A DNA stretch of 27,863 nt, from the IMG/VR virus record IMGVR_UViG_3300046028_003928, positions 1 to 27,863 of that record. The stretch is one strand, 5' to 3'. Positions 1 to 26,058 of the stretch are shown here, piece after piece; the stretch's first letter is position 1; every line of letters starts with the position of its first letter. The notes below the pieces were generated by a model. It did no database searches, had not been told where the DNA came from, and saw only the letters and a list, made by a program, of their open reading frames with translations. A program made the translations under genes and the position numbers. The stretch is from a virus.

Positions 1-53
1 TCAGTTTTAATTGTCGTCAGGGGTCAACTATAATTGTCGCTGCACAGCTGGGA

Positions 54-156
54 GTTTCAATCCGCGCCCCCCCGTGTGAGGGGGCGACTGGTCCCAACCC
101 GGATCGCAGCACTTTGCGGAGGTTTCAATCCGCGCCCCCCCGTGTGAGGGGGCGAC
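54..156 (-). CRISPR. Mini-CRISPR array: two type I-C-like repeats, one spacer
   Basis: Two identical 35-bp units lie at 54-88 and 122-156, separated by a 33-bp unique spacer (89-121). On the minus strand each unit starts GTCGCCCCC, forms a 7-bp CGCCCCC/GGGGGCG hairpin, and ends CGGATTGAAAC. The ATTGAAAC end and the 11 nt left after the stem match type I-C repeats, where Cas5d cuts at the stem base to leave an 11-nt 5' handle. A spacer of 33 nt is normal for I-C. Positions 1-53 hold no third repeat. No cas gene is in the window and no AT-rich leader is seen; the sequence upstream on the minus strand is the 3' part of a small ORF, so transcription would come from the leftward phage operon. Confidence 0.88.
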
Positions 157-296
157 ATTTGGCTCGGTGCGTTGTGTGGTAGTAGTTCATAGGTTAAATC
201 AGGTTGTAGTTCGTGACCGCAGTTGACGCAGCAGATACCCCAGTAGTCATGGGTTGGTCCGTGCAAGTCTAAGCTTTGGCACTCAGGGCATTCCAT
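57..296 (-). CDS. Small zinc-ribbon protein, 3' end running through CRISPR repeats
   Basis: This 79-codon ORF has a plausible native N-terminal part with two CxxC pairs (C3/C6 and C23/C26), a treble-clef or zinc-ribbon signature. From about residue 47 the reading frame is made of CRISPR repeat, spacer and repeat, and its TGA stop (57-59) lies inside the leader-distal repeat. The start overlaps the end of the upstream gene by 28 bp. Either the array inserted into the gene and replaced its 3' end, or the tail is fortuitous. No SD sequence precedes the ATG. The function is unknown; small zinc ribbons of this sort are common phage hypothetical proteins. Confidence 0.5.
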   Translation of the reverse strand: MECPECQSLDLHGPTHDYWGICCVNCGHELQPDLTYELLPHNAPSQMSPPHTGGRGLKPPQSAAIRVGTSRPLTRGGAD

Positions 297-898
297 AGGT
301 CAGGATGTGGCAGTGGGTTTTTGAGGTATGCCTCCAGTTCCATGGTGCGTTCGGGATCACGGAACCATCCAGTCCCGTCGCAGGACTCGGCTCCGGCTTG
401 TTCAGCTTGCTCCAGCAGTCTGCGGGAGTTTACCCGGCCAACATGGACGCGCGGAAAGTTGTCAGCCCACATCCGCAGGTTTGCCCATTTCCAGCTTGTG
501 CTTCCCCCCACAAAAACAACGTCAGCATCATTTGGCACATCTGCCGGAGTCATCCCGTCCTGAGCGGCAAATGCCATCGGAACTCCAAACGCTTTGACTG
601 CCGGTGAGTGTTGCTGCCACATCAGGAGAGTCTTATCGCGATTCCCCACAGAATCAGGAACTACTACCCAAGAGGGTTTCCATGCGGCGTATGCATCAAG
701 GTAGCGGTAAAACGGCTCCTCAGACCATTCTTTGCCTGCAGTGAAAGCGCCAAAAACTCCATTGTCGAGTGCCCATGGGATTCCTCGTTTTGGTTCGGTA
801 AGTCTTTCGGCGGAATGAAGATGGGCAAGCCGGTTAGGGTATCGGCCAAAGAGAAGTCCGCAATCGAACCCGGTGTTGTTTGATGGCATGATTAGCAT
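269..898 (-). CDS. TGT/DpdA-like phage protein
   Basis: This 209-residue protein has conserved-looking blocks LDNGVFGAF (about 44-52), PDSVGN (81-86), QDGMTP (113-118), FVGGSTSWKW (129-138), HVGRVNS (152-158) and SCDGTGWF (172-179). The pattern of beta strands ending in short acidic motifs suggests a TIM-barrel fold. I recognise it as similar to short phage proteins related to tRNA-guanine transglycosylase and DpdA, which put 7-deazaguanines into tRNA or DNA. Asp82 and Asp174 are candidate catalytic residues. The usual C-terminal zinc-binding Cys cluster of full-length TGT is absent. The leader CAACCAACTAAACTA stands in place of an SD. No QueC, QueD, QueE or FolE gene is present in the window, so the function remains inferred. 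Confidence 0.55.
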   Translation of the reverse strand: MLIMPSNNTGFDCGLLFGRYPNRLAHLHSAERLTEPKRGIPWALDNGVFGAFTAGKEWSEEPFYRYLDAYAAWKPSWVVVPDSVGNRDKTLLMWQQHSPAVKAFGVPMAFAAQDGMTPADVPNDADVVFVGGSTSWKWANLRMWADNFPRVHVGRVNSRRLLEQAEQAGAESCDGTGWFRDPERTMELEAYLKNPLPHPDLWNALSAKA

Positions 899-902
899 TA
901 GT

Positions 903-1223
903 TTAGTTGGTTGAAATTAGTGCGGCCTTAATGGCGTTAATGGTTTCGATCTTCGTGCAGTCTGATGGCTGGCAATAGAGTAGTCGGTATCCCATGCCAG
1001 CAGCAGTGTTGAGCTTCTCCCATTCTTTGATCATTGCTGCTCCTCGGGAGTGCCTGCCGTTGGAAAATACACCACCCTGAATTTCCAACGCAAGTCGCTG
1101 GTCCGGCCAACAGAAATCGAACCGCCATTTACGAACCGGGTGGAACCGGAACTCAGCAACCGGGGCAGGAATTCCGGCTTGAGCTAGTGCAGCGAGGAAA
1201 AGGCGGTCTTGGATCGGGGTCAT
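903..1223 (-). CDS. PD-(D/E)XK-type endonuclease-like protein
   Basis: A 106-residue protein when started at the ATG at 1223, which overlaps the upstream stop as ATGA; a longer form starting at 1247 is also open. It has the order of a small PD-(D/E)XK nuclease: N-terminal helix, KWRFDFCWP (Asp36), ALEIQGG (Glu47, with Gln49 where Lys is usual), then a helix with HSRGAAMIKEWEKLN and a final strand GYRLLYC. This matches phage endonuclease-domain proteins related to VSR and resolvase folds. It may act on branched DNA or nick DNA. The leader CCAAAACC immediately before the ATG is encoded by the last codons of the preceding gene. Confidence 0.7.
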   Translation of the reverse strand: MTPIQDRLFLAALAQAGIPAPVAEFRFHPVRKWRFDFCWPDQRLALEIQGGVFSNGRHSRGAAMIKEWEKLNTAAGMGYRLLYCQPSDCTKIETINAIKAALISTN

Positions 1224-1549
1224 GGTTTTGGCTGGTCGGTTTTGCATTTGGCCAAGAAACGATGCAGGAAGTTAAAGGAGTTTTCAGCGCGAGTCCCCCA
1301 TTCGTCTTCTTTTCCGTTAGCCCAATTCACGCAGTCGTTTATTGCGGCGACGGCTTCGTCCCGCTCGCGCCTCAGAACGCACATGGGCCTGACGCAGGCA
1401 TTGTGGCAGCTATGAATGCCGCGTGACCACTGGTTTTGATTGGCCGCGTTAAGCTCGCGCTCAAGCTGGCGGCAGAGGCTGAAAGCCCACTCGTCGTGCA
1501 AGCCTTCGGACCTTGCCTCACGTTCGTCTGTTCTTGGGGTGTCGCTCAT
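1220..1549 (-). CDS. Phage hypothetical protein (SDTPRTDE type)
   Basis: 109 residues. The ATG at 1549 is chosen over an ORF start at 1618 because it makes an ATGA overlap with the upstream gene and begins MSDTPRTDE, a common start of a family of small phage proteins. It continues with a helix containing RQLERELNAAN, then a Cys-bearing stretch (HSCHNACVRPMC), then another acidic helix. The family usually lies among small early genes, as here. No function is known. The C-terminus DQPKP is encoded by the C/A-rich leader of the next gene. Confidence 0.72.
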   Translation of the reverse strand: MSDTPRTDEREARSEGLHDEWAFSLCRQLERELNAANQNQWSRGIHSCHNACVRPMCVLRRERDEAVAAINDCVNWANGKEDEWGTRAENSFNFLHRFLAKCKTDQPKP

Positions 1550-1749
1550 GGGTGTTTTGGGTAATACTTGGTTTGGTCCTCGGAAGCAACATACAGGTCT
1601 TTCCGCATCACAAACCATTGTCCCGGCATTTTACCGTCTGGTCGGAAAGCGAAGTAAGGCGATTCGGGACTGATCGATGGCTGCATGGTTCCGGTCATAC
1701 CGTAACTGACTGCGGAAAGCCCTTTGCCAACGTAGATGGCTCTTTTCAT
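1546..1749 (-). CDS. Small hypothetical protein, beta-rich
   Basis: 67 residues. It joins the genes on both sides by ATGA overlaps. The segment YFAFRPDGKMPGQWFVMRKD looks like a small beta-barrel core with aromatic positions, and the protein ends in the basic tail YYPKHP. It has one of the clear Shine-Dalgarno sites of the window, GGAGGAG about seven bases before the ATG. I do not recognise a family. Confidence 0.65.
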   Translation of the reverse strand: MKRAIYVGKGLSAVSYGMTGTMQPSISPESPYFAFRPDGKMPGQWFVMRKDLYVASEDQTKYYPKHP

Positions 1750-1952
1750 TCCGGCTCCTCCAGTTGATCGACCAAGTCGTCAAAATGACCCTGCCCTGTT
1801 AAGGTTTTGCGGTTCAGTTCCGCATACTGTGATGCGTTAAGCAGTCGCAATTTCTCGTATCTGAGGTATCCAAGCGCCAGCACCTTGACGGGCAATACTG
1901 AAACTACTCGGTGGATGTCATCCTTTAGCTTGTCTCTTTGTTCTGTGGTCAT
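1746..1952 (-). CDS. Small hypothetical helical protein
   Basis: 68 residues from the ATG at 1952. Longer starts at 1982 and 2033 lie inside the upstream gene. The chosen start follows a C/A-rich leader, CACTAAACCAAACTAT, with no SD. The protein is mainly helical and charged (TTEQRDKLKDD at the start, DDLVDQLEEPE at the end). Its last codons supply the GGAGGAG SD of the next gene. No family is recognised. Confidence 0.6.
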   Translation of the reverse strand: MTTEQRDKLKDDIHRVVSVLPVKVLALGYLRYEKLRLLNASQYAELNRKTLTGQGHFDDLVDQLEEPE

Positions 1953-1974
1953 ATAGTTTGGTTTAGTGCTTAAT

Positions 1975-2769
1975 TTAACCATCGTAACATCCACAAGGCA
2001 CGGGCTGGGCGGCATTATTATCGACCCAATCAAAGAGCTTGGCTTGGTTGTCGTCGGCGGCTACGATCTCGGTCCAAGGGATGCCCATTGATAAGCCTTT
2101 GACGCGGCCTTTGATTTTTAGGTTTTTCTCCATAGTTATAGCACGCTCATAGAGGTCGGGGTTTTCATCCCGCAGCTTGATGATCTCATGGCGCTTCATT
2201 GCTGGGCAGAAAAAGCAGGATGATTTGCCCGGCGGAGTCATCCCGTGCCGCTTAATAGCCTCCACGCAGTCCGCCTGTCTCCATTGCCAATCAATAAGCG
2301 GATACCAAAATTGCTCCGAACGTCCCTTGGTAAACGGCTTCATTTTCTTTCCAACGGCCCGGTGCCCTTCCGCTGCATGGTATCCAATAGCCCGAGTCAC
2401 TACTTTTACGCCAACGCTGTCCATCCATTTTAGCACATAGCGGTTTTGTGGATCAACCTTAAACCTCATGGAGCACCGTTTGCTCCCATAGGCCAAAGAC
2501 GGAAGGATGTGCTTGCGTAGCGAATCGTTTTCCAGTCCCTCAAACTTGCCTTGGAATAACTCACGCACCGTGATGATTTCAATGCCCCACCAGATTTGGC
2601 AAAGTGCTGAGATTTCTACTAAATGAGCGTAGGTTCGCGGGTGCTCGGCTCCAGTGTCGGCAAACAGCATTAGGTCGGGTCGTATGCCTCGCTCCCGAAA
2701 TCCGCAAAGCATTGCCGTTGAGTTTATGCCGCCGCCATAGGCAACAATTAAAGGAAGGTCTGGATTCAT
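1975..2769 (-). CDS. PP-loop ATPase, PAPS reductase-like
   Basis: 264 residues. The N-terminus IVAYGGGINSTAM carries a variant PP-loop (GGGINS in place of SGGxDS), followed by LFADTGAEHP, typical of phage phosphoadenosine-phosphosulfate reductase family (PF01507) proteins. Near residue 180 it has SSCFFCPAMKRHE, a Cys-x2-Cys motif found in many phage members. These enzymes activate a substrate by adenylation; sulfate reduction is unlikely in a phage, and DNA or RNA modification (as with DndC) is a common suggestion. The C-terminal Cys layout does not fit QueC. It overlaps the upstream gene by ATGA. The role here is unknown. Confidence 0.82.
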   Translation of the reverse strand: MNPDLPLIVAYGGGINSTAMLCGFRERGIRPDLMLFADTGAEHPRTYAHLVEISALCQIWWGIEIITVRELFQGKFEGLENDSLRKHILPSLAYGSKRCSMRFKVDPQNRYVLKWMDSVGVKVVTRAIGYHAAEGHRAVGKKMKPFTKGRSEQFWYPLIDWQWRQADCVEAIKRHGMTPPGKSSCFFCPAMKRHEIIKLRDENPDLYERAITMEKNLKIKGRVKGLSMGIPWTEIVAADDNQAKLFDWVDNNAAQPVPCGCYDG

Positions 2770-24545: not shown

Positions 24546-26058
24546 CTATCTTGCTTGGAATGGGTTGTGGAATCTTGTCTTCCTTGCCAAAGAATGACCC
24601 TTCACGAAGTCCAAGACGGGCTTCGATTTCTTGTCCGTAAGCCAATTCAAGACCTCTTTGCTCAAACTGCTTGCGCCAGTCGTCCCCGTCCTCGCCATAC
24701 CAGTCTTGATAAGTAGTGCCGCCTTCGCGCAGTTCCTTCATGCCGGAACTAGAATCCCGACCGGCATCAATAGTAAGGGCGCTTGGAGCGATCCATGAGC
24801 ATTTCCACCAGTTCGTATCTTTGCAATATGGGATTGCGCCCGATTTCTGCGCGAGGGCAATGGCATAGACCCAATACGGCTGGCAGAACTGCTCAATCAG
24901 ATTAGACCGCATCTCCTTAAGGGTCTTCTCTGCCATTCGCATGATGAACCGGACGGCAGGACCAGAGATTCCGCTGATCGACCACATTGATTCCACCGGC
25001 ATGGAGAACCCGGCAGCAATATCGTGAACAAGATAAGATTTGAAATCCATCTGGTTTTGGTGCGGACGGGAATCATTGACCGTCTTAAGATCCTGCCCTT
25101 GATTGAGCGTGAGCATTGCGCCTCCTCCCTCCGTAAGTGCCTCAAACTTGATCGGCTTGGGGTCAGCTACGGTGGCACTGTTGATGGCGCGATAATCTGG
25201 CTTGGTATTGTATTTCCCAGCAGCAGGGGCGGCATCGATGTTGTTCAGGATTTGATTCGTTACGTAAAAGCCGACGATGTTCCCAGCCTTGATGCCTCGC
25301 TTGGTATCGTTATCGATTTCCCGCAGATCCAGCATATTGTTGATGGCGTGGATAAAGCCGGTCAGGCCGCGAGGGGACTGAGGCGATTCAAACCGACCGC
25401 AATGCAGAATCTTGTCGGCGCGGATGACTTGCGCTTCCCGGCTGTAGTTGCCCGGCTCAAGGATGCTGTAGGCTTGCTTTTTTCCGTATCGGTCGGTCTG
25501 GACTCCGTCAAACCATCCGTCCTGAGCAAGTTGCTTGGTTCCGCTTCCGACTTGTGGAGCTTCGTAGAATACCGTTCGGGCCGTTCCGGTTGTGGTGGTG
25601 GTCAGTCCGATGAAGCAATCACCATCGACCAGGCCGCGTTTAAGGATTGTCTTCTGCCGGGTGCTGAAGTTTTCCATTCCGCCTTGATCGTGGACAAGTC
25701 GGCTACCTTGGGTGCGGTTAAAATACTCTAGGGCGATCTTGTTCCACTCTGTGTCCGATGTGGCTGGTTGCGGGATAAGTGGTCCCGCCATGCGCGGCAG
25801 AGTGTTGGCGAAGTGACGGGCGAGACCGACGTTTGCTTCAAGCCATCGGGCCTTGCGTGATACCTCGCTACGCACATACTGCGAGACATTGGTTTTGCTG
25901 TCTATGTTAGGGAAAAATACATAGCCTCTGCCGGTGGATTGGTCTGCGGCAGTGTAGCCAGAACCAGAGCTTCCTCCGCTCCCGTAGCCGTAGGAGACCG
26001 GAGCTTCAATGCCCCCAGATTGAGCCGGAAGTGATTTAGGTCGTTTGCGCTTGGACAT
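24532..26058 (-). CDS. Portal protein, lambda gpB family
   Basis: 508 residues with a basic start, a Gly/Ser/Tyr-rich linker (GYGSGGSSGSGYTAAD), then YVRSEVSRKARWLEANVGLA, the helix and asparagine pattern of lambda-type portals, and LKRGLVDGDCFI. Later parts include RGIKAGNIVGFYVTN, MDFKSYLVHDIAAGFSMPVE and FIMRMAEKTLKEMRSNLIEQ, all in lambda-portal order. It forms the dodecameric DNA channel at one capsid vertex. The leader contains CCAAATCGAATAAGT. Gene order (terminase, small protein, portal, protease) agrees. Confidence 0.92.
   Translation of the reverse strand: MSKRKRPKSLPAQSGGIEAPVSYGYGSGGSSGSGYTAADQSTGRGYVFFPNIDSKTNVSQYVRSEVSRKARWLEANVGLARHFANTLPRMAGPLIPQPATSDTEWNKIALEYFNRTQGSRLVHDQGGMENFSTRQKTILKRGLVDGDCFIGLTTTTTGTARTVFYEAPQVGSGTKQLAQDGWFDGVQTDRYGKKQAYSILEPGNYSREAQVIRADKILHCGRFESPQSPRGLTGFIHAINNMLDLREIDNDTKRGIKAGNIVGFYVTNQILNNIDAAPAAGKYNTKPDYRAINSATVADPKPIKFEALTEGGGAMLTLNQGQDLKTVNDSRPHQNQMDFKSYLVHDIAAGFSMPVESMWSISGISGPAVRFIMRMAEKTLKEMRSNLIEQFCQPYWVYAIALAQKSGAIPYCKDTNWWKCSWIAPSALTIDAGRDSSSGMKELREGGTTYQDWYGEDGDDWRKQFEQRGLELAYGQEIEARLGLREGSFFGKEDKIPQPIPSKIENLA

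Follow-up and report, generated by a model that had tools for sequence, protein, structure and literature searches.

A type I-C CRISPR array at the end of a phage contig, probably a host array fused to it during assembly

We found a single-spacer type I-C CRISPR array at one end of a phage contig of 27,863 bp (the window, i.e., the whole stretch of DNA analyzed, which is a complete virus record), and we posit that it is probably a cellular array, with two neighboring spacers directed against this phage group, that was fused to the phage contig in assembly. The array lies 53 bp from base 1 of the window, which is the contig end, and its surroundings are made up of the following features:

1–46, plus strand: IS21-family-like insertion sequence, right end only, truncated by the contig end (alignment to an end in the Akkermansiaceae genome G009)
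47–53, minus strand: 7-nt remnant TCCCAGC between the insertion sequence and the repeat that comes second on the minus strand (sequence)
54–88, minus strand: CRISPR repeat GTCGCCCCCTCACACGGGGGGGCGCGGATTGAAAC, type I-C form (sequence comparison, fold)
89–121, minus strand: 33-nt spacer CTCCGCAAAGTGCTGCGATCCGGGTTGGGACCA (30/33 match to positions 25629–25661 of the phage relative G001)
122–156, minus strand: CRISPR repeat, identical second copy (sequence)
157–190, minus strand: 5′ fragment (MNYYHTTHRAKC...) of a conserved phage gene, cut by the repeat (homologues in L003 and L005)
157–190, minus strand: junction segment, spacer-length phage sequence, 34 nt shown and 33–36 possible (ends exactly at the repeat)
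157–296, minus strand: zinc-ribbon-like phage ORF MECPECQSLDLHGPTHDYWG..., cut by the join (68 aa in L003)
269–898, minus strand: phage gene of PHROG 15826, function unknown (96% identical protein in L003)

The array, its relatives and the phage

The two identical 35-nt repeats (54–88 and 122–156, spacing 68) flank a single 33-nt spacer at 89–121, with coordinates exactly as in the original prediction; a perfect 35-nt repeat with such spacing is well past chance expectation, and this is real CRISPR sequence. The predicted type I-C form was borne out on several counts: the window repeats show both the type I-C consensus (GTCGC...GGATTGAAAC) and its hairpin (~10 pairs, −19.8 kcal/mol), on the minus strand they terminate in ATTGAAAC, and a closely similar repeat is found beside I-C cas genes. 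Similar repeats, two to three edits off, form arrays in Gammaproteobacteria and in many Verrucomicrobiota genomes, and one of them, two edits away in a gammaproteobacterial genome (L182), lies next to Cas1c, Cas4, Csd2 and Csd1, which is the type I-C set and hence points to the same type for the window array. The spacers of these related arrays are mostly 31–37 nt long (mode 34), and the phage-derived spacer of the window is within this regular I-C range (about 31–37 nt). The window contig has neither cas genes, as had been predicted, nor a leader, and the first repeat on the minus strand directly adjoins a phage gene with no leader between them; the 27,863-bp window has no further repeat copies elsewhere. 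Judged by these features the array is of type I-C. The spacer also has a 15-nt inverted match to window positions 2599–2613, rejected as chance because less than half of the spacer is covered and its 5′ end is left out.

The original prediction had proposed a comparison of the repeat with those of candidate hosts, which returned the exact repeat in no genome searched, with similar ones two to three edits away: the exact 35-nt repeat is absent from other IMG/VR virus contigs and from GTDB representatives, and no copy with up to two mismatches occurs in the 244 genomes of the family of the Akkermansiaceae metagenome-assembled genome. The exact spacer has no IMG/VR match, and spacers of related arrays match the phage relatives over at most 20 nt, giving no host link. 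The major capsid gene has counterparts in just two of 384 genomes of the class, at 44–45% identity, which allows no host call. The array is mainly of use as a host clue, being evidence that some I-C-bearing bacterium, possibly from the Verrucomicrobiota, has encountered this phage group.

The rest of the window encodes phage functions, including a terminase large subunit, portal, S49 protease, major head protein, endolysin and exonuclease. Its close relative G001 (36,864 bp) carries the same 127 nt at both ends, and on this basis we take it to be complete and circular. From position 917 to its right end the window is, with gaps, colinear with G001, their major capsid proteins are 100% identical, and ~11 kb of G001 is missing from the window. 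No I-C repeat was detected in G001 or in the relatives fetched (L003–L086), and window positions 1–300 had no match among phage records and weak matches only among plasmids, these resembling other I-C arrays.

The phage genes nearest to the array also display local rearrangement. The gene order of window 157–1958 differs from that of the sister phage contig L003 (3428–5758), with the block 157–898 placed after a VSR-like gene in the window and before a QueD-like gene (PTPS, PF01242) in L003, a difference that shows mosaic exchange near a queuosine-related module. A phosphoadenosine phosphosulfate reductase-like phage gene is present at 1975–2769 (PHROG 424, E 9e-37).

The phage junction and the outer flank

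Followed on the minus strand toward the array, the window is identical to L003 at 98/104 bases up to position 157, the last base before the repeat, and past it the identity falls to 16/57, the level of unrelated DNA. Two overlapping phage genes, both intact in L003, are severed at this repeat edge. One of these encodes 80 aa in L003 (MNYYHTTHRAKCPNGKL...) and is kept in the more distant L005; 34 nt of it are left in the window, from its ATG to the repeat. The original prediction had placed the array at the end of a phage operon; with both genes cut, that operon end is not intact. Since the phage sequence stops exactly at the repeat start, a spacer's length of it is available, and the related arrays have a modal spacer length of 34, we infer that a host spacer with the same sequence as the phage makes up the junction segment and would bridge the two sequences.

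The outer flank, too, has the look of host DNA, in which an IS21-type element would have broken the array, and its resemblance to the G009 insertion-sequence end is moderate. On the minus strand, after the 7 nt, it runs to the contig end as TGTGCAGCGACAATTATAGTTGACCCCTGACGACAATTAAAACTGA; within window positions 1–46 there are motifs TCAGTTTTAATTGTCG and TCAACTATAATTGTCG, 23 nt apart, and an outer end of ...GCTGCACA. This end aligns with an end in G009, with none of 5000 shuffles scoring as well, and the matching G009 end follows an IstB gene (PF01695, E 9.5e-55); the window thus shows motifs and an end resembling those of an IstB-adjacent element, and its contig terminates before any transposase gene. 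The 384 genomes of the class contain no copy of the window end with three or fewer mismatches, so that the flank does no more than suggest a host, and window positions 1–60 had no match among plasmids. Going by the spacing, the 7-nt remnant is probably what the insertion left of the beginning of another spacer, and the repeated nature of the IS21-type element may account for the assembly stopping there. The IS21-type end of G009 is seen four times in that Akkermansiaceae genome, and in L179 (98–138) it sits immediately against an I-C repeat.

We posit the following origin. Window positions 1–156 would have come from a cellular array of type I-C into which an IS21-family insertion sequence had already inserted, the host order being repeat, spacer A, repeat, spacer B, repeat, broken spacer and insertion sequence. 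Spacer A (window ~190–157) would be identical to the window phage, and spacer B (121–89) would come from a close relative. As spacer A and the phage would share 33–36 nt, a short-k assembly step could have run from the phage contig into the array where the shared segment ends, and the resulting biology would be ordinary host immunity against this phage group. The 127-nt overlap of G001 fits an assembler finishing at k = 127. Assemblers that finish at this value usually start their series at k = 33, which is short enough to cross the shared spacer. That the join arose during assembly is likewise what we infer, and several observations count against it: a fork in the assembly graph normally breaks a contig instead of joining it, the exact repeat is in no host genome searched, the target flanks lack TTC, and I-C mini-arrays occur inside virus contigs. 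A literature search gave no paper directly on exactly such an assembly artifact.

A joined molecule that is real, in which spacer–protospacer recombination led the phage to take up a piece of the host I-C array with a spacer against a sibling, or inserted the phage into the host array, is rather unlikely. The specific version in which recombination between spacer A and its protospacer links phage DNA to the host array, in an integrated phage or a transducing particle, is quite improbable, even though it predicts the same geometry and sequence as the assembly join and there are reports of spacers recombining with phage targets (Watson 2018 and Varble 2019, both cited in PMC8616872). It would require recombination over a mere ~34 bp and a high abundance to be assembled, and neither the window nor the complete G001 has a tyrosine integrase, making a regular lysogen unlikely. 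A physical join would make this a natural case of spacer–protospacer recombination arming a phage with a spacer against its sibling. A chimeric DNA molecule from amplification or ligation in the library would presumably likewise set phage beside host array, but we consider this highly improbable, because a random chimera would not break precisely at the repeat edge and a contig end is not built from one read.

Spacer targets and the case for a phage-borne array

The prediction that the spacer is directed against a phage held up, with a match at 30/33 positions (25629–25661) in G001, a close relative of the window phage, and none in the other records of the 23 relatives. Both the spacer and the G001 target encode the peptide PQSAAIRVGT, and the codons for it, up to the final base, differ only once and synonymously; the spacer thus derives from a homologous gene of a related phage. 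The targeted gene sits in the ~11 kb of G001 missing from the window, and a search for its relatives returned G001 itself as the sole hit. A 5′ TTC protospacer-adjacent motif had been predicted but was not seen at either site: the G001 target is flanked by TTA, and the junction segment, depending on its length, by CTA, CCT, ACC or AAC. Given the three mismatches to the spacer, the original target phage may differ from G001. The missing TTC weakens both sites as candidate working targets in these phages, with escape mutation as a possible reason.

The original prediction had also read the array as carried by the phage itself. Under this explanation, a transcript from the upstream operon would be processed by host Cas5d, and host Cascade and Cas3 would then exclude a sibling phage. 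The aim at a very close relative is the pattern reported for viral mini-arrays (PMC6858448, PMC8616872), the leader missing here is likewise missing in reported phage mini-arrays, and single-spacer I-C arrays also occur deep within other virus contigs (e.g., L231, L239, L240 and L244). We nonetheless regard it as unlikely. The homology to the sister phage stops exactly at the repeat with two genes cut; the outer flank is an insertion-sequence end and not phage, leaving phage on one side only; the array sits at a contig end and none of the relatives fetched has it; and the G001 target has no TTC. A phage-borne array would need two broken genes, an abutting insertion-sequence end and a base-exact repeat edge to coincide at a contig end. 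The contig end, the homology break at the repeat edge, the spacer-sized segment and the IS21-type outer end instead favor a contig join to a host array, the very artifact that the original prediction had named as its alternative. We would therefore treat the window array as weak evidence for a phage-carried CRISPR array, and prefer the assembly join.

Comparable arrays in other virus contigs and known systems

An IMG/VR control of I-C repeat pairs recovered some that are internal and some at contig ends, showing that contig position alone is not decisive. Single-spacer I-C mini-arrays well inside contigs (L223, L231, L239, L240, L244, L249 and L250) are better candidates for phage-borne mini-arrays than the window, although L231 is without the ATTGAAAC end in its second repeat. 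Two- or three-repeat I-C arrays less than ~130 bp from a virus contig end (L225, L230, L233, L234, L236, L242 and L247) may be joins like that of the window. A host array with a phage-identical spacer, when fused to the phage in a metagenome assembly, can mimic a phage-borne mini-array, and short arrays near virus contig ends are not to be counted as viral without reads.

Solitary type I-C repeats, apparently intergenic, were also found in virus contigs L205 (6532–6565), L206 (11298–11329) and L207 (802–834), shortly upstream of a start codon in L205 and L207, and all three are RNA anti-CRISPR candidates. Such solitary repeats inside virus contigs and the described type I-C case RacrIC1 (PMC10651486) lend some plausibility to a comparable role for the window, with phage repeats acting as decoys for host Cas proteins. 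We consider this the least probable of the explanations, since the window has two perfect repeats around a phage-targeting spacer and not a solitary diverged unit, and the join evidence applies here too. With RacrIC1 and the solitary repeat units, which have no partner within 100 bp, the window shares an I-C-type repeat on a virus contig, but differs in its two perfect repeats and targeting spacer.

Viral mini-CRISPR arrays, such as those of SPV1/SPV2 and the bacteriophage examples, target sibling viruses (PMC6858448) and likewise have one spacer, no cas genes and a close viral relative as the target. The SPV arrays lie between genes, possess leaders and have been verified from virions, whereas the window array cuts two genes and lies at a contig end with an IS-type flank. 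Recombination through a spacer has been reported between phages and CRISPR loci (Varble 2019, as cited in PMC8616872) and for staphylococcal phages (cited in PMC8616872), and the order that it predicts, i.e., phage, shared spacer, repeat and host DNA, is that of the window; sequence alone does not separate it from an assembly join. The window contig differs from chromosomal type I-C arrays (L182, and L097, L120 and L179 in Akkermansiaceae) in having no cas genes or leader, one phage flank and an exact repeat that is unmatched in the genomes searched. It shares with them the repeat form, the hairpin, the ATTGAAAC end and a 33-nt phage-derived spacer, and the chromosomal array of L179 features an insertion-sequence end beside a repeat, as in the window.
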